64,000 bases of DNA from Berryella intestinalis (GTDB lineage Bacteria > Actinomycetota > Coriobacteriia > Coriobacteriales > Eggerthellaceae): NCBI RefSeq assembly GCF_000814825.1, contig NZ_CP009302.1, forward strand, positions 1,302,001 to 1,366,000, in the 5' to 3' direction. Made by a program: the position numbers and the translations under genes. Below, in pieces: positions 2,113 to 18,483 of the stretch (positions are counted from its first letter, which is position 1; each line of letters opens with the position of its first letter). The notes under the pieces were generated by a model. That model was not told the origin of the DNA, searched no databases, and saw nothing but the letters and a program-made list of their open reading frames with translations.

Positions 2113-2475
2113 GGGGGCGACTGGTTTCGACATGGTAGGTCTGACGTGAGGAGCAGGCCGTGGTCTCCTCGCCACGCTAAACAGGGGTACAGTCAAATTA
2201 ATTGGCGAAAAGAACTACTCTGGGCGTTACGCCCTCGCTGCTTAATTAATTAGCGGCCGTCAACCTCGGATCTTCCCCGCTCCGAGTGCGACGTCATTTC
2301 AGGGGAATGCTCTTGCGCATGTAGCCGGTATGGCGCAAGCTAAGATCAAACCGACTCGAATCGGCAACGTCTGTCAACGAACCGAGCCGCTTTTAAATCC
2401 GATCGCTGAATAAGCTTGTAGAGCCTGACCGAGGATCTAGTATGGACCGGAGTTCGATTCTCCGCGCCTCCACCA
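2113..2475 (+). ncRNA. ssrA: Transfer-messenger RNA (tmRNA)
   Basis: One-piece tmRNA. The 5' end GGGGGCG pairs with CGCCTCC at the 3' end (one G-U pair) to make the seven-base acceptor stem, followed by the discriminator A and encoded CCA (2473-2475). The 5' side continues ACTGGTTTCGAC, the usual D-arm replacement, and the T-arm is CGGAG-TTCGATT-CTCCG. The tag reads GEKNYSGRYALAA and stops at TAA (2243-2245); GGC at 2204-2206 is the likely resume codon, though a codon or two earlier cannot be excluded. It works with SmpB to rescue ribosomes. A mobile element is inserted at its 3' terminus, and the shared core CTCCACCAA overlaps the CCA end, so the RNA itself remains intact. Confidence 0.97.
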
Positions 2476-2476: not shown

Positions 2477-2546
2477 AAGAGGAAGCGTCGAACTCTTCTT
2501 TTACAAGAATGAGTTTGCGCTTGTGTATAGATTTGGGGACGCCTGA
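2477..2546 (+). other. Detached 3' end of the serine recombinase gene
   Basis: When the two att cores are joined, the recombinase frame continues from codon 526 into this stretch: 23 codons (KRGS, then VELFFYKNEFALVYRFGDA) to a TGA at 2544-2546. The stop lies within the loop of a terminator hairpin, as expected for a normal gene end. In the integrated state the segment is separated from the rest of its gene by 11.5 kb and sits directly after tmRNA without its own start codon. Confidence 0.7.
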
Positions 2547-3755: not shown

Positions 3756-3977
3756 ATGGCTAAAGGAAAGAAGCAGGTAAAAGAGGTAAAGCCCTCTTAC
3801 ATGACGACGCGCGAGGTGGCGGCGTTCCTCGGTTTGAGCGCGGGAACGCTCTGCACTTGGCGCTATCAGGGCAAGGGTCCGAGCTACTACAAGGTCGGAA
3901 ACGCGGTTCGCTACAAGATTGACGACGTCGAGGCGTGGAAGAACGCGAACGTGAAGCACGTCGAGCTGACGAATTAA
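3756..3977 (+). CDS. AlpA/excisionase-like helix-turn-helix protein
   Basis: A 73-residue protein with a MerR-type winged helix-turn-helix of the AlpA/excisionase group: MTTREVAAFLGLSAGTLCTWRYQGKGPSYYKVGNAVRYKIDDVEAWK. In this group the first helices bind DNA and the YK-x-G-x-xVRY strand forms the wing. The N-terminus is Lys-rich (MAKGKKQVKEVK). GGAGGT precedes the ATG. It is the first gene after an attenuated leader and is followed 12 bases later by the helicase gene, with AAGGAGGTGG between. Such proteins act as recombination directionality factors or as activators of satellite-phage integrase and replication genes. Which role applies here cannot be told from the sequence. Confidence 0.8.
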   Translation: MAKGKKQVKEVKPSYMTTREVAAFLGLSAGTLCTWRYQGKGPSYYKVGNAVRYKIDDVEAWKNANVKHVELTN

Positions 3978-3989
3978 GGAGGTGGGAAT

Positions 3990-5933
3990 ATGGAGGCAAA
4001 AGAAAAGAGCAGTTCCCCCGCCGCCACAGCAAAGGGAACCGCTCCGTCTAACTATAAATATTATAGCTCATTACCGCCCATTTTTCAAGTATCTGACCCG
4101 CAGACAAAGGATGAGATGAAGAGGGGGCGTGCGTATGACGAGGGGAATCAGGGCGAGGCGTACAACCCTGACTACCTGTACGGCGGGGAGAACTATCACA
4201 AGGCGCTCAGCGATGTGGTGAGCTATGTGCTGCGCGGCTGCGCGGGCGATGGCCTGTCCGCTCTCTCGGACGTCGTGGTCAAGGTGACGAACGCCCTTGT
4301 GGCGTGGGTCAACCTGTCCGAGCCGCCATCCAATCCGGAGGCGGGCAAGATTTACGGCAGGGGCTTTCGCTGGCCGAGGCTCAAGAGCATCGACCCCGTG
4401 CAGGCCGCCGAGCTGGTGTTCGCGCAGGAGGTCATCCGCATGGTCTGCGTCAAGGAGACCGTGGACAAGCCGACCTCGGAGGGCGTGTTCGCTATGTACG
4501 ACCCCGACGAGGGGATTTACCGCGAGATTGGCGACGGGCAGATTGACCTGTGGTGTCAGGAGGTCGTGGGCGCCGTGAACGGCAACTGGAAGAAGAACTT
4601 CGTCCAGAAGCTGCACGACATGGCATCGCGTCGGGAGAACCGCGTGTGCGAGTGCGACAACCCGTCTCTGGTCTTCATGGCCAACGGAATCTGGGATTAC
4701 GAGGAGCGCGTCCTGCGCGAGTTCTCCCCCGAGGTCGTTGCTCTCAGGAAGAGCGCCACGCGCCTCCCCGACAAGGAGCCGCCCGTCCCCGAGCACACGA
4801 TGCCGGATGGCTCGAAGATTGACTTCTGGCAGCTGCTGGACTCCTACGCCCCCTACGACGGCGGGCGCGATTTGCTCGTCAAGGTGGCGGGGGCGTCCCT
4901 GCGCAGCTACCACAACTGGCGCGTCATGGTGACCTTCCACAACAGCACGGGTCACAACGGGAAGAGCACCTTCCTCGACTGCCTCAAGTCGCTCGTCGGC
5001 TACGACGGGTGCATGACCTCAAGCCTCGCGCTGCTTGCCGGCGGCGGGGATGGCGGGCGGTTCGGCGTGTCGAACATCGTGGGGGTCTCCCTCATCACGT
5101 GCGAGGACTCCGATTCGGGTGCATACCTGAAGGACAACTCGCGCCTGAAGTCAATCATCTCGCATGACGCGATAGGCGTGGAGCGCAAGAACAAGGGCAT
5201 GTTCGACTACACGCCCCACGCGCTGATTGTCTGCGCCGCCAACGACATCCCGAAGACCCGCGACAAGGGGGACGCTTGGCTGGCCCGTAACATCTACGTC
5301 CCGTTCGCGGGGCAGTTCGTCGGCAAGGCCGACGACAAGACCATCCGCTCCGAGTGGGTCGTGTCTCCCGAGTTCTGCGAATACCTGGCCTATCAGGCGC
5401 TGGTGAAGTGGGACCGGTATTACGAGCTGCCCGAGCCTAAGGAGGCCGCGCAGCTGAAGCACGAGTGGGTTCTCGGCAATGACACGGTGGCTGAGTTCTG
5501 GGAGGACGTCAAGGATTCGATTACGGCCGACTTCGTGCCGAATGATTACCTGTCCATGCGCTACGACGAATGGCTGGACGCGGAGCACAAGGGCATGCGG
5601 ATGCAGATGAGCCGCAAGGCGTTCACGGCCCGAATCGTCGAGCTTGCGTGCTCCGACGGCGAATGGACGCAGAGCAAGGACGCGAGCGGGTCCGTCCTCA
5701 AGACGAGCTGCGAGAAGTGGTGCCCCGGCTTGAAGGCATACAGCAAGCGAGCTGCCGGTTTTGGCGGCGCGGGCGGATGGGTCCCCTTCCTGGGCAGACG
5801 TCGCGGGATTTTCCGCACGGTCGTCCTCGATTACTGCACAGCCCATGGCACGACTCCCGCAGACCTCGGTGCCGGTTACGCGGCGGTGAGGGAGCAGCTT
5901 GGCCTTGCGACGGATACAGAAGACAACGATTAA
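3990..5933 (+). CDS. P4/D5-type superfamily 3 replicative helicase
   Basis: A 647-residue phage/plasmid primase-family protein. The C-terminal half has the SF3 helicase core: Walker A NSTGHNGKST (Lys325), Walker B/B' region SLITCEDSDSG, and motif C ALIVCAANDIP, which ends in the Asn sensor. The preceding region (about 190-310) resembles the D5_N domain. The first 190 residues show no clear primase-polymerase catalytic motif, so I read it as a helicase without evident priming activity. The last 140 residues probably form the winged-helix DNA-binding part. Proteins of this family open replication origins of satellite phages and small mobile elements, and the TGACCA array upstream is the natural target. 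AAGGAGG precedes the ATG. It is likely translated from the same mRNA as the AlpA-like gene. Confidence 0.85.
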   Translation: MEAKEKSSSPAATAKGTAPSNYKYYSSLPPIFQVSDPQTKDEMKRGRAYDEGNQGEAYNPDYLYGGENYHKALSDVVSYVLRGCAGDGLSALSDVVVKVTNALVAWVNLSEPPSNPEAGKIYGRGFRWPRLKSIDPVQAAELVFAQEVIRMVCVKETVDKPTSEGVFAMYDPDEGIYREIGDGQIDLWCQEVVGAVNGNWKKNFVQKLHDMASRRENRVCECDNPSLVFMANGIWDYEERVLREFSPEVVALRKSATRLPDKEPPVPEHTMPDGSKIDFWQLLDSYAPYDGGRDLLVKVAGASLRSYHNWRVMVTFHNSTGHNGKSTFLDCLKSLVGYDGCMTSSLALLAGGGDGGRFGVSNIVGVSLITCEDSDSGAYLKDNSRLKSIISHDAIGVERKNKGMFDYTPHALIVCAANDIPKTRDKGDAWLARNIYVPFAGQFVGKADDKTIRSEWVVSPEFCEYLAYQALVKWDRYYELPEPKEAAQLKHEWVLGNDTVAEFWEDVKDSITADFVPNDYLSMRYDEWLDAEHKGMRMQMSRKAFTARIVELACSDGEWTQSKDASGSVLKTSCEKWCPGLKAYSKRAAGFGGAGGWVPFLGRRRGIFRTVVLDYCTAHGTTPADLGAGYAAVREQLGLATDTEDND

Positions 5934-5946
5934 GGAGGAATAGATT

Positions 5947-6267
5947 ATGGCAACGAAGAGGTTTGATGACGTGGCCGAGAAGGCACGTGCGTTAGAGGCT
6001 CAGGCGAAGAAGCTGCGCCGCGAGGCGCAGGCCGCGAGGACGAAGGCTTACGCCGACGCGCTCGTGGCGGTTTTCCCGGAAGTGAAGGACATGGGTTCGG
6101 CGGAAGAGGTCCTTGATTTCGTCAAGGGGCTGAAGCCGGGCACCGGACACGGAACGCCGGTTGCGCGCGCCGCTGGCGCTGCGGATTCCGGTCATGTTCT
6201 GACCGCAGAAGCTGGAGAGTCGTCGGAAGCGCACGGCGGTTTTTCCGGCGCGGCCTACCAAGGGTAG
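5947..6267 (+). CDS. Hypothetical small coiled-coil protein
   Basis: A 106-residue protein with a strong ribosome site (AAGGAGG) 13 bases after the helicase stop, so probably the last gene of that operon. The first 45 residues (FDDVAEKARALEAQAKKLRREAQAARTKAYADALVAVFPE) form a charged amphipathic helix suited to a coiled coil. The middle (MGSAEEVLDFVKGLKPG) is a short mixed segment, and the last 40 residues are Gly/Ala-rich and probably disordered. I do not recognise it. Similar small helical proteins are often accessory replication or relaxosome factors on plasmids, and it lies between the helicase and the structured mobilization region, but no function is shown. Confidence 0.65.
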   Translation: MATKRFDDVAEKARALEAQAKKLRREAQAARTKAYADALVAVFPEVKDMGSAEEVLDFVKGLKPGTGHGTPVARAAGAADSGHVLTAEAGESSEAHGGFSGAAYQG

Positions 6268-6278
6268 CCGTGCCGGGT

Positions 6279-6442
6279 TCCACCGAGGGATTCGGGTTCC
6301 ATGTCGGACAGGGGAAGTCGTTCCCGTGTCCGACATGGACGGGCGAGGCTCGGTGGACAAAAGGCGGGGGTTCGAAGGGGACGGCGCAGCCGCCCCCTCG
6401 CAAGCTGACGGAGTAGGACAAATTGCGAGAATCGCAATTTGT
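6279..6442. other. Nested inverted repeats, candidate oriT
   Basis: This 164-bp region upstream of mobC holds three hairpins. The first is a nested pair: outer arms TCCACCGAG (6279-6287) and CTCGGTGGA (6349-6357) enclose a 12-base perfect stem CCATGTCGGACA/TGTCCGACATGG (6299-6310, 6327-6338), which continues past one mismatch into GGGAA/TTCCC. The second is GGGG-A-CGGC/GCCG-CCCC (6377-6396). The third is a perfect 11-base repeat ACAAATTGCGA/TCGCAATTTGT (6418-6428, 6432-6442) with a 3-base loop, followed by GTACGTAC. No T-run follows any of them, so these are not terminators. Position next to mobC-relaxase and the inverted repeat followed by a short unique stretch match plasmid transfer origins. 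The role is inferred. From 6443 to 6568 I see only the mobC leader. Confidence 0.6.
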
Positions 6443-6568
6443 ACGTACGGAGTCAATGCTTGCTCTTTTCCCCTTTGCGCAGAGACGTTGCGAGATTAGC
6501 CGAAAACGGCATTTCGGATTGTCCGCCGCAGGCGGGCGTTTCGGATAGCAGCAAAGGAGGTGTTCCGC

Positions 6569-7027
6569 ATGGCGGAAACGTATGAAAAAAGAAGCGGGAA
6601 GGCGACGCGCCAGAAGTACGTGAAAGACCGCCGTGACAAGGTGGTTCAGGTGCGTATGAACGACGCGGAGCTTTCCCTGCTGGACGAGCGGCGCGGGACG
6701 TGCTCGCGTTCCAATTTTCTTCGCGGTGAGCTGTACGCGAGTCGGTACGCGCCGCCCAGCCGCGAGGTGGTTCTGGACGTCCCGGCCCTGGACCGTGTCC
6801 GTGTCGAGCTGAACCGCATCGGCGTCAACATGAATCAGATTGCCCGTGCGCGCAACCGGCGCTTGAGCGGCATGGGAGTGCTCGACGCGGTGCGTGAGGA
6901 AATGAGGACGAAGGACGAGGCGGAAGCGTTCCGCGAGTTCCGCGATTCGGTGGACAAGCTCCGGGCGCAAGTCGAGGGACTGCGTGCGGATTTGCAGGCG
7001 TACGTGGAGACGGGAGGTGATGTCTGA
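6569..7027 (+). CDS. mobC: MobC-like relaxosome accessory protein
   Basis: A 152-residue protein. The segment VRVELNRIGVNMNQIARARNRR matches the conserved MobC motif (LxxIGxNLNQIAR) of plasmid relaxosomes. The N-terminus (KVVQVRMNDAELSLLDERR, then SRSNFLRGELY) is a ribbon-helix-helix-like DNA-binding segment, and the C-terminus is a helical, charged tail. MobC bends or melts oriT so that the relaxase can nick it. I chose the ATG at 6569 because AAAGGAGG lies eight bases upstream; a GTG at 6560 is inside that ribosome site. The stop overlaps the relaxase ATG (TGATG at 7025-7029), so the two are translationally coupled. Structured DNA upstream is the expected binding site. Confidence 0.88.
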   Translation: MAETYEKRSGKATRQKYVKDRRDKVVQVRMNDAELSLLDERRGTCSRSNFLRGELYASRYAPPSREVVLDVPALDRVRVELNRIGVNMNQIARARNRRLSGMGVLDAVREEMRTKDEAEAFREFRDSVDKLRAQVEGLRADLQAYVETGGDV

Positions 7028-8553
7028 TGTCAACGACGCATGTGCAGTCGCTTCCGAACGTGCGCGGGCGTATGTCGTACACCGAGTTCGGCGAGGGAAA
7101 GCGCAGACGCGCTCATCTGGAAAACGGCACGGACCGCATCGCCGCGCAGATGGGCGACGCCGCCTCAAGAGGGGATTTCATTGTCTACTGCGAGGGGCAG
7201 AGGCATCGCCACCCGAACGCGGTCAACGAGGGCTACGAGCTGCGCATCTCATGGGCGACCGACGAGCTTGACCCAAGCAAGGCCGACGACATCCAGCGTG
7301 GCATGGAGTACGCGTACACGCTGTGCCACGAGCTTGCTCCCGACTCCATGTGCTGGGTCACCATGCACGTGGACGGCGAGGGAGGCTGCGTGCACGCGCA
7401 CGCGACCATTGCGAACCACGACGCCCGTACCGGTCAGGTCATCAACAAGGGGGACACGAGCCTCTACGCTCCGCGTGTGAAGGCGGTCAATGATGAGCTG
7501 AGCCGTGAGAATGGTTTCTCGGTGCTCGGGGCGGACAAGGAGATGTCCCTCTGGGAGCAGAAGCGCGAGACGTTTTCGCCCGGTTCTTTCGACCGGCGTC
7601 TCGGCGACAAGGTGGCGGATGCCCGCGACCGCTCCAGCACGCTGGACGAGTTCAGGCGCAATCTTGAGTTGAGCGGCGTGACGCTGAAGGAGACCGCGAA
7701 GACCGACGGGAAGACCGGCGAGGTCACGACGGGATGGTCCTACAAGGCTGTGGACGAGTGGGGACCGAAGCGCCGCACCCGCAAGCGCCGTGCCTCCAAC
7801 CTCGCCGACGACCTGACCCGCGAGGGCATCGAGGCGTACTTCGAGGCGAAGCAGCGCGAGCTTGAGGCACCCGAGCAGGACGCCCCGGCACCGGAAGTCC
7901 TTCCCGACGTGCCCGAGACGGCCGAACCGGCAGAACAGCCCTCTGCGGATTTCGCTCTCGACGTGTACGACCTCGACCGGGCGTACGTGTCGGAGATGGC
8001 GTCCGACCTTCAGAGGGCGCACATCCACCGCTCACGCGAGGCGGGCGAGTCCTTCATGGACGAGCGCTACGAACGACTCGTGGAGGCGCGCAACCACCCG
8101 GACGAGCAGCTGGCGAAGCTGCGCGAGGACGTGGACGCCGCGAGGCGCGAGTTCTATGCCTCCAAGGAGGCACGCGACACCATGCAACACCCGTTTCCGG
8201 GGCTTCTGGCCGGCATGCACGTGTTCGCCAAGGCGGGGCGCGACGCCCGTGACCCCGTGTCCCGCATGATGGCCGACATGACCGCCATGATGCTGCGCAT
8301 GATGATTCAGGAGGCGCTCGCGGAGGAGCGCCGCCAGCAGCGCGAGGAGGCGGAGAGGCGCGTCTACGAGTCCCGCAGGAGCATGTGGGATGCCGAGAAG
8401 CGCCTCAAGGCGGCGGAGAAGGCGCTGTCCAACGAGGACGAGCGCGAGACCAAGGCACACGCCAAGACCATGCGGGCGCGCTATGCCAGGGCGCGAAGTG
8501 CCAGCCCAAGCACGCCGAGGTCGGCGGGCAAGGACACGCAGTTCGGTGAGTAG
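7027..8553 (+). CDS. Relaxase / mobilization nuclease (MobP-like)
   Basis: A 508-residue relaxase. The metal-binding motif CVHAHATIANHD (His123, His125, Asn130) is the HxHxxxxN signature of HUH-type mobilization nucleases. Tyr18 in the N-terminal MSYTEFG is the best candidate for the DNA-linking tyrosine. The sequence between (YCEGQRHRHPNAVNEGYELRISWATDELDPSKADDI) fits the conserved core. From about residue 240 the protein turns basic (PKRRTRKRRAS), and the last 200 residues are mostly charged helix and coiled coil (AEERRQQREEAERR). It would nick oriT, stay attached to the 5' end and be exported through a helper conjugation machine. No coupling protein or T4SS gene accompanies it. The start overlaps the mobC stop. 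Confidence 0.85.
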   Translation: MSTTHVQSLPNVRGRMSYTEFGEGKRRRAHLENGTDRIAAQMGDAASRGDFIVYCEGQRHRHPNAVNEGYELRISWATDELDPSKADDIQRGMEYAYTLCHELAPDSMCWVTMHVDGEGGCVHAHATIANHDARTGQVINKGDTSLYAPRVKAVNDELSRENGFSVLGADKEMSLWEQKRETFSPGSFDRRLGDKVADARDRSSTLDEFRRNLELSGVTLKETAKTDGKTGEVTTGWSYKAVDEWGPKRRTRKRRASNLADDLTREGIEAYFEAKQRELEAPEQDAPAPEVLPDVPETAEPAEQPSADFALDVYDLDRAYVSEMASDLQRAHIHRSREAGESFMDERYERLVEARNHPDEQLAKLREDVDAARREFYASKEARDTMQHPFPGLLAGMHVFAKAGRDARDPVSRMMADMTAMMLRMMIQEALAEERRQQREEAERRVYESRRSMWDAEKRLKAAEKALSNEDERETKAHAKTMRARYARARSASPSTPRSAGKDTQFGE

Positions 8554-8565
8554 CCGAAAAGATGA

Positions 8566-8592
8566 GGGAGCAGCGTCAAGCTGCTCCCTTTC
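8566..8592. terminator. Terminator between convergent relaxase and minus-strand genes
   Basis: GGGAGCAGC (8566-8574) pairs with GCTGCTCCC (8580-8588) around a GTCAA loop, followed by TTTCTC on the plus strand. It separates the relaxase gene from the convergent pair at 8593-9217. Confidence 0.7.
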
Positions 8593-8871
8593 TCAATGGA
8601 TTTCAGGTGCTGGCACGTAGTCCCAGCTGGTCCCGAAGTGCGTGATTCCCCACACGTACAGGTCAAGCTCCTCGTCGTGGAACACCGGCTCGTCGGTGTG
8701 CTCCATGAGGAACGACGGGTCCTGCACGATGTACCACTGGAAAATCTCCTCCCACGGTGCCCAGTCCCCGCTCACGGGTTCGAGCGGGCGGCTGGCAATC
8801 TCGTTCGCGAGCACCATCCCGCCGCACGTCTCGGCGAGGTCGGCGTAGGTCTTGATGCCGTAGTCACTCAT
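8593..8871 (-). CDS. Hypothetical plasmid-type 92-aa protein
   Basis: An acidic 92-residue protein beginning MSDYGIKTYADLAETCGGMVLANEI. The C-terminal half reads EIFQWYIVQDPSFLMEHTDEPVFHDEELDLYVWGITHFGTSWDYV. I recall the same Trp/Tyr-rich pattern (QWYII, then YVWGVTHFGTSWDYV) in small proteins of Gram-positive plasmids and conjugative elements, none of known function. GGAGG precedes the ATG. Its first eight bases overlap the end of the upstream minus-strand gene, so the pair is translationally coupled. It runs opposite to the mobilization genes. A role in antirestriction or element maintenance is possible but not shown. Confidence 0.7.
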   Translation of the reverse strand: MSDYGIKTYADLAETCGGMVLANEIASRPLEPVSGDWAPWEEIFQWYIVQDPSFLMEHTDEPVFHDEELDLYVWGITHFGTSWDYVPAPEIH

Positions 8872-9217
8872 CGCCCTCCTCCTCCGCTTCCCGCTCCTCG
8901 ATTCGCTTGAGGTATTCCGCCACGCAGTAGCGCATGGTGCGCAGGGCCTCGCAGTCGATGCTCTCCGCGAGGATGTCCCCGTCGAGGACGACCTCGCCCA
9001 GAGCGTTCACGAACCGCCACTCCATCACGTTGTCGATGCGCTTGAGGACGTCCTTCAGGGTGCCGCTGTCGCGCATGGGGGTGTTCCCGTCGACCTTGGC
9101 CATGCGCTCAAGCTCCTTGGCCTTCGCCGAGCAGATGCGGGCGGTGCGCCTGAGCACCTGCGCCCTCCACATGGCCTCCTCCTGGGGGCTGCTGGGTTCA
9201 AGACGCTCCTTGTCCAT
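8864..9217 (-). CDS. Hypothetical 117-aa helical protein
   Basis: A 117-residue charged protein, largely helical: an N-terminal run (AMWRAQVLRRTARICSAKAKELERMAK), a short middle segment (NVMEWRFVNALGEVVLDGDILAESIDCEALRTMRYCVAEYL), and a Glu-rich end (KRIEEREAEEEGDE). AGGAGG lies seven bases before the ATG at 9217. It forms a two-gene minus-strand operon with the 92-residue gene it overlaps. I do not recognise a family. No membrane span, signal peptide or catalytic motif is seen. Its promoter should lie in 9218-9520, where I could not identify a convincing minus-strand one. Confidence 0.65.
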   Translation of the reverse strand: MDKERLEPSSPQEEAMWRAQVLRRTARICSAKAKELERMAKVDGNTPMRDSGTLKDVLKRIDNVMEWRFVNALGEVVLDGDILAESIDCEALRTMRYCVAEYLKRIEEREAEEEGDE

Positions 9218-9520
9218 CGTGTACCTCCTTATCTTCGTTTCAGAGGCACCCGACGCCGCAGGCGTCCTGCATGGGTGCAGTCCGCTCGCGGGCTACAAAG
9301 AGACCTTCAGAAGGGCTGTTGATGGGCGTACGTGCAAGGGGCGGAAAATCGGGGTTTTCGCCGTCCGCTCGTTTATGAGACGGATTCGGAAAACGCGCGA
9401 GACGGACGGAGCGAAGCGAGGGCGTGAAGCCCGTTTGGAGACCGGCAAAAGCCCAGATGAAGACCCGATAAAGCCCCTGCTCTGGTCTGCAAAAGGGCGT
9501 GCTCCGATAGCTACTGCATA

Positions 9521-9549
9521 TTGACTTTTATTTACTCAGTAGCTATAAT
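9521..9549 (+). promoter_or_regulatory. Promoter of the parA-RHH-RM operon
   Basis: TTGACT (9521-9526), a 17-base spacer and a perfect TATAAT (9544-9549). The -10 box lies in the spacer of an inverted repeat (9533-9563) that matches one downstream of parA, so the promoter is probably repressed by the element's own DNA-binding protein. Between 9218 and 9520 I see GC-rich short inverted repeats and one copy of a CGTTTATGAG motif (9370), but no gene. Confidence 0.75.
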
Positions 9550-9563
9550 ATAGATATTGAGTA
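9533..9563. promoter_or_regulatory. Putative operator O1 over the parA promoter
   Basis: TACTCAGTA (9533-9541) and TATTGAGTA (9555-9563) form an inverted repeat with a 13-base spacer enclosing the -10 box. The same arms, TACTCATTA and TAATGAGTA, with the same 13-base spacer occur at 10171-10201. The consensus half-site is TACTCANTA. Confidence 0.65.
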
Positions 9564-9592
9564 TATATTCTTGATAGGATGGAGGTGCTGAT

Positions 9593-10180
9593 ATGAAGAC
9601 AATCGCAGTCGTTTGCGAGAAAGGCGGCACCGGTAAGTCGGTGATAGCCAACGAGCTTTACGAGAGCTATGTGCGACAGGGCGTGCCCGCGTCGCTCTAC
9701 TCTCTGGACGGTCAGTATAAGGACGCGTCGTCTTCGAAGAAGGTCGAGGATGCCGAGGTTGCCATTGTCGATACGCCGGGCGTGCTGACGGACAATCTGA
9801 GCGACCTCGTTTCCGGTGCAGACGTCATCGTCATTCCCGTTCGACCGACGCCGAACGACATCGAGCCGTTCACGCGAACGGTCTCTATCGTGACGAAGAA
9901 CACGAATGCCCCGCTGGTCATCGTGGTGAACGGGACGAACCGTTTTCGCATGTGCGCGTCGTTCATGGCGTGGCTTGAGAAGAAGTCATGGGCGAAAAAC
10001 GTCGTCAAGGTTCCGCAGTCCGAGGCAATCGTGCAGGCGCAGGGCATGCAGAAATCCGTCGTGAGCGTGGACAGGCACGGTGCCGCCGCCGAGGCGGTCC
10101 GCACGATGTGCCGCAAGGTCAGCATTCTAGCGGGCCTGCCGTTCGAGAAGAAGCAGTTGAAAAGGATAGATACTCATTAG
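9593..10180 (+). CDS. parA: ParA-family partition ATPase
   Basis: A 195-residue ParA/MinD-type ATPase. The deviant Walker A CEKGGTGKS (Lys10 and Lys15) is the hallmark of this family; Walker B is AEVAIVDTPG (Asp60); and VIVIPVRPTPNDIEPF matches the switch region of small plasmid ParA proteins. It has no N-terminal helix-turn-helix, so it belongs to the short (type Ib) group that works with a ribbon-helix-helix partner. GGAGG precedes the ATG. The next gene encodes that kind of partner. A partition system in an integrated element implies a phase in which it exists as a circle that must be segregated. The stop codon lies inside the second operator. Confidence 0.9.
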   Translation: MKTIAVVCEKGGTGKSVIANELYESYVRQGVPASLYSLDGQYKDASSSKKVEDAEVAIVDTPGVLTDNLSDLVSGADVIVIPVRPTPNDIEPFTRTVSIVTKNTNAPLVIVVNGTNRFRMCASFMAWLEKKSWAKNVVKVPQSEAIVQAQGMQKSVVSVDRHGAAAEAVRTMCRKVSILAGLPFEKKQLKRIDTH

Positions 10181-10206
10181 ATACCTGTTAGATAATGAGT
10201 ATCTAT
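10166..10206. promoter_or_regulatory. Putative operator/centromere O2 between parA and RHH gene
   Basis: A 14-base perfect inverted repeat, ATAGATACTCATTA (10166-10179) and TAATGAGTATCTAT (10193-10206), with a 13-base spacer. Its core (10171-10201) has the same half-site and spacing as O1. TTAGATA occurs twice inside. It overlaps the parA stop codon and lies just before the ribosome site of the RHH gene. It could be a parS-like centromere, an operator, or both. Confidence 0.65.
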
Positions 10207-10221
10207 GCGAGGAGGTAGGAT

Positions 10222-10470
10222 ATGGCGAAGAAGCAAGATATGGCGGCATTGCTCGACAAGTTCGAAGCAGACGCCGCGAAGGAACACGATAAGAAGGAGG
10301 CCAAGGCGAGCGTTTCCGCCGATGCATCGGAGGAGCGCGCCACGTCGTTGGTCTCCATGACGAAAAGCGATAAGGAGCGCCTGACGGCGATTGCGAAGAC
10401 TCACGGGTTGAGCCTGTCCGCGTTTTTCCGTCTGGCTGCCGACGAGTACATCGCGAACCATGAGTGGTAA
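10222..10470 (+). CDS. Ribbon-helix-helix DNA-binding protein (ParB-like partner)
   Basis: An 82-residue protein. The N-terminal half is charged and probably flexible (MAALLDKFEADAAKEHDKKEAKAS). The C-terminal half, ATSLVSMTKSDKERLTAIAKTHGLSLSAFFRLAADEYI, fits a ribbon-helix-helix fold: a short strand with alternating residues, then two helices ending in the usual SxSxFxRxAxxEY pattern. Small plasmid partition systems often pair a short ParA with such a protein, which binds the centromere, represses the operon, and stimulates ParA through its flexible N-terminus. Both putative operators flank parA. GGAGG precedes the ATG. The methyltransferase gene follows closely and probably shares the transcript. 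Confidence 0.8.
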   Translation: MAKKQDMAALLDKFEADAAKEHDKKEAKASVSADASEERATSLVSMTKSDKERLTAIAKTHGLSLSAFFRLAADEYIANHEW

Positions 10471-10489
10471 AGGAGGCTTGAATAATTAC

Positions 10490-11488
10490 ATGAATAAGAT
10501 AACGAATATCGAGCTTTTTGCAGGCGCTGGAGGACTCGCCCTTGGCCTTGAACAGGCAGGCATTGAGGGTGTTGAGTTTGTTGAGTTCAATCACGCCGCC
10601 TGTGATACATTGCGCAAAAACCGCCCGAATTGGAATGTTGTCGAGGGTGATGTACATGGAGTGGATTTCACGCAGTATCACGGTAAGGTTGACCTGGTAA
10701 GTGGAGGTGCTCCCTGTCAAGCGTTTTCGTATGCTGGTAAAAAACTAGGGTTCGGCGACACTCGCGGGACGTTGTTTGCCGAGTTTGCGCGTTGCGTTGA
10801 AGAGGTTTCGCCGAAGATGTTCCTGTTCGAGAACGTGCGGGGGCTTCTGAGCCACGACAAGGGCCGGACGTTCGATACCATCAAGCACACGTTCGAGGGG
10901 TTGGGATACGCCGTCCAGCACCGTGTCTTGAATGCCTGCTATTTTGGTGTCGGGCAGAAGCGCGAACGTCTCATCGTCATCGGCATCCGCAACGACCTGG
11001 CAGATAAAGCAGTGTTCGAATATCCCGAGCCCGACAAGGAGCAGACGACGCTTCGCGACGTGCTGCAGAACGTGCCGGACAGCCCTTATCAGCCGTATAG
11101 CGAGAAGAAGCGCAAGGTCATGGCGATGGTGCCTCCCGGCGGATGCTGGGTTGACCTGCCCGATGACGTGGCGCGGGAGTATATGGGCAAAAGTTATTTC
11201 TCCGGCGGAGGCCGCCGTGGGATGGCGCGTCGCATCGCTTGGGATGAGCCGTGTTTGACTTTGACCACCTCGCCGTCGCAGAAGCAGACGGAGCGCTGCC
11301 ATCCCGACGAGACACGTCCGTTTACGGTGCGGGAGTATGCGCGCATCCAGAGCTTTCCCGACGACTGGCAGTTCGAGGGCGCTATCGGCGACCAGTATAA
11401 GCAGATAGGCAACGCCGTGCCCGTGGAGCTAGCGAGGCGTGTCGGGGTGGAGATTGTTCGGGCGTTGCGGAGTTGCAACGATAACTGA
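10490..11488 (+). CDS. DNA (cytosine-5)-methyltransferase of a type II R-M system
   Basis: A 332-residue C5 methyltransferase. Motif I is IELFAGAGGLALGLE (AdoMet binding), motif IV is GGAPCQAFS with catalytic Cys76, motif VI is FENVRG (Glu114), motif VIII is GQKRERL, and motif X is QIGNAVPVELA near the end. The target-recognition region lies at about 190-270. It protects the recognition site of the endonuclease encoded immediately downstream, probably GGNCC. I chose the ATG at 10490, since homologues begin shortly before IELFAGAGG. An ATG at 10460 would overlap the RHH gene, and the AGGAGG upstream sits 13 bases from the chosen start, which is long. Base composition is more AT-rich than the surroundings, a sign of separate acquisition. 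Confidence 0.93.
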   Translation: MNKITNIELFAGAGGLALGLEQAGIEGVEFVEFNHAACDTLRKNRPNWNVVEGDVHGVDFTQYHGKVDLVSGGAPCQAFSYAGKKLGFGDTRGTLFAEFARCVEEVSPKMFLFENVRGLLSHDKGRTFDTIKHTFEGLGYAVQHRVLNACYFGVGQKRERLIVIGIRNDLADKAVFEYPEPDKEQTTLRDVLQNVPDSPYQPYSEKKRKVMAMVPPGGCWVDLPDDVAREYMGKSYFSGGGRRGMARRIAWDEPCLTLTTSPSQKQTERCHPDETRPFTVREYARIQSFPDDWQFEGAIGDQYKQIGNAVPVELARRVGVEIVRALRSCNDN

Positions 11489-11502
11489 AAGGAGGAAGTG
11501 AC

Positions 11503-12345
11503 GTGGATTGGGATATAGATTTCATCTCGTATGAGGATTTCAAGAAGCATGTGCGCAATACCATTGCTCATTACGGTGAGAAATTGGAACCGTATGATGT
11601 CGAAAAGTTTAATAGCAATATCATCGACCCAGTGAAGATGATTTTTGATAAGGCTGTTTATGGCGAAGATTGGCCAACCCTTATTTCGAATGAGATTTTC
11701 CGCCAGCGCGATAAGTCAAACACAAACGAAATCGGGTATTTTCATCAGCGCTTGTTTGAGTTTGTCAAGAATTGTCATGTACCGCTTAATGGACAGGAAG
11801 GCGGATGGGACGTTATTTACGATGTCCCTGACGGCTATGTGCTGGATGATGGAAACACCGTTCACAAAATCTATGTTGAGATGAAGAACAAGCACAATAC
11901 GATGAACTCTGCCGCATCTGGCAAGACGTACATCAAGATGCAAAACCAGCTCTTGAATGATGATGATTGTGTTTGCTTCTTGGTGGAAGCAATAGCACGT
12001 CGTTCGCAAAACATCGTCTGGAAGACCACGGTTGACAAGCAGAAAGTGTCGCATAAACGCATAAGGCGCGTGAGTATTGATAAATTCTATGAGATTGTCA
12101 CCGGGCAGGCCGATGCGTTTTTCAAGGTGTGTATGGCGTTGCCTCATGTTGTCGAAGAGGTGTTGTTAGAAAGCGACAACGAGGTTAAAACACCGCACGA
12201 TACCGTATATCTCCAGATGCGAGAAACGGCCAAGGGCTTCAAGGGCGTTTCGGAAGATATGGCCATGATTCTGTCCATGTATATGCTCGGATTCAGCACA
12301 TACAATGGTTTCGAAGCAATTATCAGAGAGTCCGACAATAAATGA
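11503..12345 (+). CDS. Type II restriction endonuclease, Eco47II family
   Basis: A 280-residue protein that I recognise as the Eco47II/Sau96I family, whose known members cut G^GNCC. The diagnostic stretch is IGYFHQRLFEFVKNCHVP, then GWDVIYD, then IYVEMKNKHNTMNSAASGKTYIKMQ. Asp103 with Glu126-Met-Lys128 gives a PD-(D/E)xK-type active site. The start is a GTG with AAAGGAGG seven bases upstream. It follows the methyltransferase by 14 bases, so protection is made first from a common mRNA. No controller protein is seen. Its AT content is the highest of any gene in the element. Such pairs also act as addiction modules that stabilise the DNA carrying them. Site specificity is inferred from the family. 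Confidence 0.88.
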   Translation: MDWDIDFISYEDFKKHVRNTIAHYGEKLEPYDVEKFNSNIIDPVKMIFDKAVYGEDWPTLISNEIFRQRDKSNTNEIGYFHQRLFEFVKNCHVPLNGQEGGWDVIYDVPDGYVLDDGNTVHKIYVEMKNKHNTMNSAASGKTYIKMQNQLLNDDDCVCFLVEAIARRSQNIVWKTTVDKQKVSHKRIRRVSIDKFYEIVTGQADAFFKVCMALPHVVEEVLLESDNEVKTPHDTVYLQMRETAKGFKGVSEDMAMILSMYMLGFSTYNGFEAIIRESDNK

Positions 12346-12400: not shown

Positions 12401-12490
12401 ATGAAAACCTATAAGCAGAAATTACAGGGGGTGGTAAATCCATGGCACGCAAGAAGAAATTCGCGCCGAACGATAACAACCTCGCGATAG
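12401..12490 (+). CDS. Possible 29-aa leader peptide overlapping recombinase start
   Basis: A short frame with an excellent ribosome site (AAAGGAG, six bases before the ATG) encodes 29 residues starting MKTYKQKLQGVVNPWHARR and stops at TAG 12488-12490. It overlaps the first 49 bases of the recombinase gene in a different frame. The better ribosome site belongs to this small frame, not to the recombinase, so ribosomes finishing it could be needed for, or could compete with, recombinase translation. There is no independent evidence that the peptide itself has a function. Confidence 0.4.
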   Translation: MKTYKQKLQGVVNPWHARRNSRRTITTSR

Positions 12491-14085
12491 CGTACTATCG
12501 CTTCTCGTCCCACTCGCAGAACGATGCGAGCATCGACCAGCAGCGCGAGCTTGCCCACGAATGGGCGGATGCGCACGGCTTCAAAATCGTGCAGGAGTAT
12601 GAGGACGCGGCAATATCCGGCACCACGGACGCACGACCGGGGTTCCAGCAGATGCTGTCGGAAGTCGCAAAAATCCGTCCCCATACCCTCATCATGTGGA
12701 AGACCGACCGCCTGGGACGCGACAAGTACGTTCTGGCGATGGCGAAGAAGAAAATCCGCGACGCGGGATGCGAGATTCACCTGTTGGCCGAGCACATCCC
12801 GACGGAGGGACCCGAAGGCGTCCTCATCGAGGGGCTGATGGAGGCCATGGCGGAGTATTACAGCCGCCAGCTGTCGCAGAACATCCAGCGCGGCATGGAC
12901 TACAACGCGCAGCACGCCCTGTACAACGGCCACAAGCTGTTCGGCTACGACGTGGACAGGTCAACGAAGAAGTACATCCCGGACCCGAACACGGCGCCGT
13001 TCGTGCAGTGGGCGTTTACGGAATACGCGTCGGGCAAGCCGCTGAAGACCATTGCCGAGGAGATGAACGCGCAGGGCCTGCGCACGCCGAGGAACGCGAA
13101 GTTCAGCGTGAACATGCTGAACAAGATGCTCAAGAACCGCGCCTACATCGGCGAGTACCACCACGGCGACATCGTGGTCGCCGGCGGAATGCCCGTCCTT
13201 GTCGACGAGGCGACTTTCGATAGGGCGCAAAGGCGGTTCGCCGAGAACAAGCGCAAGGGTTCCCAGAGGGCGCACGGCATGGACGACGCCGACGCTCCGC
13301 GCTATTGGCTCACGGGCAAGCTCTATTGCGGTGAGTGCGGCAGCACCATGCAGGGCGTGTCCGGTACGAGCAAGACCGGGCGGAAGTATTACTACTACTA
13401 TTGCTCCGCCCAGCGCAGGAAGGAGTGCCACCTGCACAAGGCCCGCAAGCGGGACTTGGAGGACATGGTGCTGTTCGCCCTGCACAACATCGTCGACGAC
13501 GAGGAGAACGTGACGGCGCTCGCCCTGGATGCGGCGGAGTATTACGAGAAGAACCACAATGACACCGCGTACCTCGAAGCGCTGGAGGCGAAGCGCAGGG
13601 AAGTGGAAAAAAGCCTTGCGAACCTCGTGAAGGTCATCGAGAAGGGCGTGGTCAGCGATACGGTGACACAACGCCTCACGCAGCTCGAAGAGCAGAAGAG
13701 CGCCCTGAACGATGCCATAGGGACAGAAAACGTCCGCGTGTCGCTGTGCGAGGACAGGCACAGCATCCAGGCGTACTTCGACAAGTTCCTGCACGCCGAC
13801 GTGAACGACCCGGAGATTCGAGACCAGGTCTTCGAGTATTTCGTGGACAAGGTCTACCTGTACGACGACAAGCTCGTCGTGAGCATGTGGTTCTCCGAGG
13901 ACGACAAGCAGGAAATCACGTGGCGGGACTGGTTCTCGCTGGATGAGTATTGGACCGACGAATCCCCTTTTGTTAAAGGGGAAGCCGTCGAGTTCGACTG
14001 CTTCCCCCTCGGCTCCACCAACAATCGCAGCAGCCCCGAACGGGACCACCGTTCGGGGCTGCTTTCTTTTCATGCGCGAACATGA
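12442..14085 (+). CDS. Large serine recombinase (integrase) with host-derived C-terminus
   Basis: A 547-residue large serine recombinase. The resolvase-type catalytic domain has AIAYYRFSSHSQNDASIDQQRE with Ser22 as nucleophile and KTDRLGRD with the conserved Arg pair. A recombinase domain follows (about 160-290: GHKLFGYDVD, then TIAEEMNAQGLRTPRNAKF). Next come a zinc ribbon (CGECGSTM, then CSAQRRKECHLHK) and a coiled coil (about 375-450). It should catalyse integration into, and with a directionality factor excision from, the tmRNA 3' end. The gene crosses the right att core: Thr526 is encoded by the core, and the last 21 residues (beginning NNRSSPERD) come from chromosomal terminator DNA. 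In the circular form the protein would be 549 residues with a different end. GGGGGTGG upstream is a moderate ribosome site. Confidence 0.93.
   Translation: MARKKKFAPNDNNLAIAYYRFSSHSQNDASIDQQRELAHEWADAHGFKIVQEYEDAAISGTTDARPGFQQMLSEVAKIRPHTLIMWKTDRLGRDKYVLAMAKKKIRDAGCEIHLLAEHIPTEGPEGVLIEGLMEAMAEYYSRQLSQNIQRGMDYNAQHALYNGHKLFGYDVDRSTKKYIPDPNTAPFVQWAFTEYASGKPLKTIAEEMNAQGLRTPRNAKFSVNMLNKMLKNRAYIGEYHHGDIVVAGGMPVLVDEATFDRAQRRFAENKRKGSQRAHGMDDADAPRYWLTGKLYCGECGSTMQGVSGTSKTGRKYYYYYCSAQRRKECHLHKARKRDLEDMVLFALHNIVDDEENVTALALDAAEYYEKNHNDTAYLEALEAKRREVEKSLANLVKVIEKGVVSDTVTQRLTQLEEQKSALNDAIGTENVRVSLCEDRHSIQAYFDKFLHADVNDPEIRDQVFEYFVDKVYLYDDKLVVSMWFSEDDKQEITWRDWFSLDEYWTDESPFVKGEAVEFDCFPLGSTNNRSSPERDHRSGLLSFHART
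14013..14021 (+). repeat. Right attachment core (attR) inside the recombinase gene
   Basis: CTCCACCAA, identical to 2468-2476. It marks the right end of the element and supplies recombinase codons Ser525-Thr526 and part of the next. Chromosomal DNA, including the presumed original tmRNA terminator, begins directly after it. Confidence 0.75.
14030..14070 (+). terminator. Presumed original tmRNA terminator
   Basis: GCAGCCCCGAACGG (14030-14043) pairs perfectly with CCGTTCGGGGCTGC (14049-14062) around GACCA, followed by TTTCTTTT. It lies eight bases beyond the attR core, exactly where a terminator would stand after tmRNA in an empty chromosome. It now also encodes the recombinase C-terminal tail, and it separates the element from convergent rnr. 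Confidence 0.85.
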
Positions 14086-17571: not shown

Positions 17572-18483
17572 CTACACCTTCAAGTAGCGGCGCATCGCGA
17601 GCGCAGACCCGATAAGGCCGATGATGAGACCCGCGACGACCAGGCCGAGATACACGAACAGGTACGTGGTCATAGACACGTCGATGGACAGGAACGTCAG
17701 CGCGGACTGCAGGCGGGGAATCAGCAGCTGGCGGATGAGCTCGATGGAGCCGACGGCCAGAAGCGAGCCGATGACCGCATGCAGCGCGCCTTCCATCAGG
17801 AAGGGCCCGCGGATGAACCCGTTGGACGCGCCCACGAGGCGCATGATGGCGATCTCCTTGCGGCGGGCCAGGATGGCCAGGCGGATGGTGTTGTTGATGA
17901 ACACCAGCGCGATGAAGATCAGCAGGGCGATGAGCGCGACGCCGACGTAGCGGATATAGTTGGTGACCGAGAACAGGCGCTCGACCGTCTTCTGCCCGTA
18001 GTTGATGGACTTCGCGGGATCCGACGGATTATCGCAGATCGCCTTGAAGGTCGAGTTCGATTCGATCTGCTTGGCGACCGATTCGACCGACTGGGGGTCG
18101 GACAGTTCGACGTTGATGGAGGCGGGAAGCGGGTTCTCGTCGCCCAGCTGCTCGGCGATGTTGGAGCCCGAATTCATCTGCTTGAAGTTCTCGAGCGCCT
18201 GGTCCTTCGTCGTGAAGGAGACCGAAGCGACGCCGCTCAGGCCCTTGATGTAGCTCTGCAGGGACTGGATGTCGCTCGTGGAGGCCTCGTCGGCAACGTA
18301 AACGGTGACCGAGACCTCTTTCTCGACCGAGCTGACGATGCGGTCGACCATGGCGCCGCCCACCAGAAACACGCCGATGATGAGCAGCGACAGGAAGATG
18401 GTGATGATGGAGCCGAGGGTGGTGGAAAGGTTGCGGGTGAACCCGCGCAGCGATTCCTTGAAGAAGTAGACGAAACTAGACAT
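17572..18483 (-). CDS. ftsX: Cell-division protein FtsX
   Basis: A 303-residue permease-like protein that couples FtsE ATPase activity to peptidoglycan hydrolases at the septum. Topology is typical: a short cytoplasmic N-terminus ([21 protein letters not shown]), a first membrane helix ([22 protein letters not shown]), a large outer domain (about 45-165), then three helices near 180-200, 225-250 and 275-295, with the conserved cytoplasmic loop [19 protein letters not shown]. The start codon overlaps the ftsE stop by eight bases, so the two are translated as a coupled pair. The length is normal for the Gram-positive family. Confidence 0.96.

Follow-up and report, generated by a model that had tools for sequence, protein, structure and literature searches.

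Predicted exchange of the C-terminus of a serine recombinase upon integration of a mobilisable element into the tmRNA gene of Berryella intestinalis

Background and related systems

Serine integrases are prized for their one-way reaction, the coiled coil and RDFs being credited with control of its direction, and excision by these enzymes requires an RDF. Studies of integrase-RDF fusions demonstrate that C-terminal attachments can also set the direction of a serine integrase (PMC5737554). Integration itself is known to alter genes that contain an attachment site. In the integration-dependent immunity of mycobacteriophages, attP lies inside the repressor gene, the integrase is a tyrosine integrase, and the free form of the altered protein carries an ssrA-like degradation tag (PMC9262239, PMC8092301). 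The archaeal suicidal (SSV-type) tyrosine integrases are inactivated when integration divides their gene into int(N) and int(C) parts, and in 2021 this arrangement was called exclusive to archaea (PMC8371274). In the Ralstonia phage phiRSS0, attP lies within ORF13, which encodes a putative regulator, and integration by the host XerCD recombinase truncates the C-terminus of its product (PMC3816273).

The locus described here lies in a 64,000-nt stretch of the Berryella intestinalis genome (the window) and shares features with each of these systems. As in mycobacteriophage immunity, attP is located in a coding gene and integration (there at a tRNA gene) alters the C-terminus of the product to give two protein forms; unlike that system, the altered gene is that of the serine recombinase itself, and the free-form tail is a hairpin and not ssrA-like. 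Consequently, the locus does not present the combination of attP in a repressor gene with an ssrA-like degron on the free form. Similar to the archaeal suicidal integrases, the recombinase gene itself contains attP and is altered by integration. In contrast to them, the protein is a bacterial serine recombinase and not a tyrosine recombinase left as two inactive fragments; the exchange is confined to the final ~25 residues, and the canonical domains are all encoded 5' of attP and remain intact. The likeness to phiRSS0 ORF13 is limited to the position of attP within an ORF, since there a regulator gene is altered by the host XerCD recombinase, whereas here it is the gene of the recombinase. The literature searched contained no description of a bacterial serine integrase that exchanges its own C-terminus, although coverage was partial and included few subscription journals, making this weak evidence of novelty.

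The element and its insertion site

The 3' end of the tmRNA gene is occupied by an 11.5-kb integrative mobilisable element (Table 1). One interior gene (7027-8553), which has no Pfam match, we infer to encode a relaxase. The C5 cytosine methylase and the Eco47II-type endonuclease form a restriction-modification pair carried as cargo at 10460-12345; this segment has no blastn match in a near-identical element of Bifidobacterium pongonis, so the cargo looks exchangeable.

Table 1. Positions of the features of the integrated element and of its ends in the window
Feature	Position	Strand	Evidence or remark
tmRNA gene, insertion target	2113-2475	+	ARAGORN; Rfam RF00023, 151.8 bits
attL: tmRNA 3' end and element left end	tmRNA 2113-2475	+	
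attL core CTCCACCAA	2468-2476	+	Minimal common core CTCCAC at 2468-2473; sequence, empty sites, other right ends
Circle-form recombinase 3' end: final 23 codons and stop TGA (2544-2546)	2477-2546	+	Joined translation; coding conservation in 15 left ends
attP P' arm GGAAGCGTCGAACTC	2481-2495	+	Inverted-repeat partner of 13990-14005; dyad scan
Terminator hairpin with circle-form stop in its loop	2535-2556	+	Downstream of tmRNA once integrated
Element interior	3756-12345	+ (plus one ORF pair on the minus strand)	Pfam
Interior genes: HTH_17 protein, DUF5906/D5-like replication protein, MobC-like protein, putative relaxase			
Further interior genes: ParA-like ATPase, C5 methylase, Eco47II-type endonuclease			
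Large serine recombinase, integrated-state reading, 547 aa	12442-14085	+	Pfam Resolvase, Recombinase, Zn_ribbon_recom; structure model
Element-encoded portion of the recombinase, 526 aa	12442-14021	+	
attP P arm GAGTTCGACTGCTTCC, within the recombinase ORF	13990-14005	+	Dyad scan
attR core CTCCACCAA, within the recombinase ORF	14013-14021	+	Sequence
Host-encoded tail of the integrated recombinase and stop TGA (14083-14085)	14022-14085	+	21 residues including the core-straddling codon
Stem of the tmRNA's original terminator	14030-14062	+	Now follows the recombinase gene, which reads through it

The first-pass annotation had assigned the element a 9-bp core. Both copies of this sequence are exact, and they are its only occurrences on the plus strand of the window, but the truly common core is shorter. 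Empty tmRNA genes of Bifidobacteriaceae terminate in ...GGCTCCAC, in most cases without an encoded CCA, and the right ends of the elements in Bifidobacterium, Alloscardovia and L049 have CTCCAC alone in common. Since the empty genes end in CTCCAC, mostly without CCA, the common core is CTCCAC, and the CCA can be supplied by the element. Several tmRNAs were missed or mis-tagged by ARAGORN and were confirmed with Rfam.

A congener genome (G024) used as an empty-site control has, beside the shared flank, the tmRNA 3' end alone, and the site there seems to be occupied by something else. Copies of tmRNA 3' ends that are repeated or detached from the tmRNA body were observed in this congener (L079) and, about 36.6 kb apart, in the Bifidobacteriaceae genome G308 (L170 and L179). 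These stray ends are probably the marks of other elements exploiting the same tmRNA.

The attP site lies within the recombinase reading frame

The two arms of attP form an inverted repeat whose dyad centre falls at 14015, the third base of CTCCAC, as obtained by summing over ten elements, nine of which agree. The short core within a roughly 50-bp dyad-symmetric attP seen here is the arrangement of serine integrases, for which a 25-bp half-site is known from the structure of LI integrase (PMC3783163). With the dyad centred at this position the entire attP would be coding in the circle, with EFDCFPLGS specified by the P half and roughly eight tail codons lying in the P' half. Outside each arm is a further copy of that arm's motif in inverted orientation, within window positions 13978-14007 and 2481-2522; it reads GGGGAAGC.GTCGA at 13978 and GAGTTTGCGCTTG at 2510. 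These copies are possibly extra binding sites or RNA hairpins.

No free circular form of the element in the window was found. Pattern scans of IMG/VR returned no intact attP of this element family, and comparison of the left end in the window with plasmids and phages gave only tRNA-like matches and one unrelated tmRNA junction.

Two forms of the recombinase

The exchange of the C-terminus was first proposed from the open frame across the joined ends, and recomputation reproduced each of its parts: the circle joint keeps the frame open for 23 codons, the first of which has two bases in common with the core, and the recombinase has 549 residues in the circle and 547 after integration, where 21 host residues replace the circle tail and read through the stem of the tmRNA terminator. 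The two forms diverge from residue 527, continuing as NNRSSPERDHRSGLLSFHART in the host-encoded form and as KRGSVELFFYKNEFALVYRFGDA in the circle form. On the joined translations, then, integration exchanges the C-terminus of the recombinase, and the integrated gene is detached from its circle-form 3' codons, now at the opposite end of the element. The stop codon of the circle form had also been taken to mark a natural gene end. This holds up, as the stop sits in the loop of a hairpin with the sequence GGGGACGCC-TGAT-GGCGTCCCC followed by TTTT, and this end is conserved in relatives. Because the circle stop lies in this loop while the host tail crosses the tmRNA terminator stem, the tmRNA and the recombinase would swap terminators upon integration.

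Conserved circle tails and unrelated host tails in related elements

An open frame of 23 codons in a single genome is uninformative alone, and relatives were therefore sought. A scan with the protein identified recombinases of 96-97% identity in Bifidobacterium pongonis and Alloscardovia criceti, and genome searches added relatives in the family and order of the window genome with identities down to 35%, several of them at 49-77%. The left ends of these elements lie at 3' ends of tmRNA or tRNA-Ala genes. The stop in the recombinase frame falls 25-26 codons past the core in 14 of 15 related left ends and 23 codons past it in the most divergent one, whereas the stops of the other two frames scatter; for L012 and for four left ends without recombinase sequence (L055, L057, L060 and L063) the frame was borrowed from close relatives. 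Most of the fifteen left ends encode [KR]xGSVELxFxxNEFALVYRF, and the stop is in or beside a terminator-like hairpin loop in eleven. Circle tails joined in silico for elements with both ends include RVGSVELFFFRNEFALVYRFGSAR, KRGSVELFFIKNEFALVYRFGDAL and KRGSVELYFVRNEFALVYRFVDDY.

The integrated tails, on the other hand, are unrelated among elements, and their lengths run from a single residue in B. pongonis to roughly 100. Conserved circle tails versus unrelated host tails were found in nine further elements, at both tmRNA and tRNA-Ala sites. Homologues ending in a host-type tail irrespective of insertion site would have contradicted the initial proposal, but the host tails differ in every element. 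Taken together, the comparisons show at the sequence level that the exchange recurs in many elements, at several sites and in several lineages. Some copies are dead, as indicated by in-frame stops in the recombinase genes of L044 and L049 and a frameshift in the Alloscardovia copy.

Coding selection on the circle tail

Past the 25-bp attP half-site, the tails of 13 same-frame left ends have a pN/pS of 0.23 in the circle frame, compared with 1.72 and 1.56 for the remaining two forward frames, with 7, 8 and 16 changes at the three codon positions; pN/pS ignores tree structure and relatedness, so these figures are descriptive. The observed value was reached by 0 of 200 column shuffles. Over the whole tail, pN/pS is 0.29 in the circle frame versus 1.26 and 1.47 in the other forward frames; one reverse frame also gives 0.29, but it contains 11 stops. 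These patterns argue strongly that the circle tail is under coding selection.

The left end could instead be conserved only as DNA, as an attP arm, accessory binding sites or a terminator, with the open frame incidental. The first eight codons are indeed the attP arm, one of the outer inverted motif copies falls in the tail, and GCGCTT is invariant even at third positions. Yet half of the changes fall at third positions, and among the forward frames pN/pS is low in the circle frame only. Furthermore, the stop position is fixed while the sequence varies, and in L046, where the core is in another reading frame, a 2-nt insertion downstream compensates such that FFFKNEFALVYKF is still in frame. 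Native tails of other DNA sequence also retain the same hydrophobic pattern. Constraint on the DNA alone is thus largely refuted, and the probability left to it is very small.

Both forms in phage and metagenome contigs

A profile scan of IMG/VR identified 80 relatives with 33-39% identity. Many of these genes contain CTCCACC close to their 3' end, and what they encode beyond it is a hydrophobic, hairpin-like tail such as PPNSANPNPIFFVKHVFGFVLIVEEV. In clusters of near-identical genes with differing tails, the break falls at the core. The comparison of free and integrated C-termini suggested at the outset could be made with two pairs of these records, all metagenomic and possibly fragments, and both forms are present. 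Up to the core, contigs L096 and L098 are identical at 11,469 of 11,470 bp; beyond it the identity is 22%, and there L096 continues with a hairpin-like tail, a DGR reverse transcriptase and phage families, and L098 with a host tail, an IS-type transposase and acetyltransferases. This gene content indicates that L096 continues into phage DNA and L098 probably into a chromosome; the left end of the prophage is absent from the L098 contig. In the second pair, L102 has the full tail, whereas its close relative L097 runs into an opposite-strand tRNA-Arg.

The isolate-derived viral/prophage record L142 seems to retain a native-like tail, ANPNPAPIGAGFGFVLFLNN, extended by about 50 more residues, which counts against the mechanism proposed below. 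Metagenome and isolate tails were only weakly told apart by an ad hoc hairpin score (post hoc p = 0.01), in which most tails did not exceed shuffles, and the score was not used as evidence.

Domains and structure

The recombinase matches PF00239, PF07508 and PF13408 above cut-off, the N-terminal resolvase catalytic, Recombinase and zinc-ribbon domains of a serine integrase, and all canonical domains of the large serine recombinases precede the core. In the model of the integrated form the domains are complete by about residue 500, helices span 354-437, and residues 512-547 are disordered. The best Foldseek matches are serine integrase complexes, and the solved relatives (SPbeta YokA/SprA, Bxb1, phiC31 and LI integrases) have the same fold and domain order. 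The model of a native-tailed relative (L145) ends in a hairpin with strands 500-503 and 506-514 (pLDDT about 82; the pTM is low, 0.46). Unlike in the solved integrases, this hairpin lies beyond the aligned region, residues 1-477 of the L145 model, although the matches hardly probe past residue 477 and the hairpin fold may be known. On these models, integration would take away just a C-terminal hairpin and leave the canonical domains intact.

Completeness of the catalytic and DNA-binding domains without the tail is what would be expected if the exchange regulated nothing and attP had been captured in the 3' end of the gene as part of a compact module, in which recombinase and attP travel together and the tail, with a modest role in the free form, is dispensable, so that its exchange is tolerated. 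The randomness of the integrated tails in sequence and length fits this explanation, as does the fact that the elements are clearly still moving between genera. Less readily accommodated are the strong conservation of the tail as protein, even though it would be made in the free state only, and the recurrence of a hydrophobic, hairpin-like end across a clade at 33-39% identity with other cores. A by-product of this kind is a realistic, if rather doubtful, explanation.

Proposed role of the tail

We favor a mechanism in which the recombinase gene holds the whole attP within the final stretch of its coding sequence. While the element is a free circle, this gene would cross attP and end in a conserved hydrophobic beta-hairpin, with its stop in the terminator loop. 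Crossover within CTCCAC would then leave the terminator and the 3'-terminal codons stranded at the far end of the element, downstream of the tmRNA, while the integrated recombinase would be fused to arbitrary host codons and use the tmRNA terminator. Because the tail would be translated in the free state only, its function would lie before or during integration, most likely in attP x attB synapsis or the regulation thereof. The recombinase made after integration would be without the tail module, from which a change in activity of either sign is expected, and such a difference may favor the integrated state for as long as excision has not rebuilt the complete gene. The directional switch envisaged in the first-pass annotation, for example through weakened excision, is plausible. 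Nevertheless, part of the tail DNA is an attP arm and hence otherwise constrained, and we regard the full explanation, in which a coding-selected tail acts before integration and the altered form favors the integrated state, as evenly balanced. Excision must still happen, which requires that the integrated form, leftover recombinase or recombinase provided in trans function in the absence of the tail. Extended to large serine integrases of bacteria across a broad clade, the free-form-only hairpin would be an integration-specific module that integration deletes from the recombinase made later, a generalization we hold tentatively and a little short of balanced.

The free-form tail, which is hydrophobic, might instead mark the recombinase for proteolysis, integration then stripping the tag. 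The mycobacteriophage ssrA-like tags on repressor and integrase provide a close architectural precedent (PMC9262239, PMC8092301). The conserved part of the tail is internal, however, and the extreme C-termini vary (GDA, SAR, GTR, DAL, DGY, DDY, EGC, EDC, ESR), with none resembling -LAA, so that a degradation tag has only a small probability.

If the proposed role of the tail is correct, a state-dependent C-terminus would constitute a further natural control of direction beside the RDF, and the clade would offer a bacterial serine-recombinase counterpart of the suicidal integrases, qualifying the published archaea-only claim for integrases that alter their own gene on integration (PMC8371274). 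Database sequences of integrated members would also end in host-encoded residues. Consequently, cloning of an annotated gene would give the altered form, which would matter for recombinase mining and genome engineering.

Further observations on related elements

The integrated tail of L044 resembles a decayed second P' tail located right after the recombinase core (reverse complement of about 18397-18450), which suggests tandem insertion of an element since lost. The Faecalibacterium phage FP_Epona has CTCCACCAA in the 3' end of its integrase gene, although the ends of the record are not its exact att sites. In four relatives (L045, L050, L051 and L053) the core is inverted with respect to the gene, such that the integrated recombinase continues into the tRNA or tmRNA in antisense orientation and acquires tails such as GGGAENRTPVHT.
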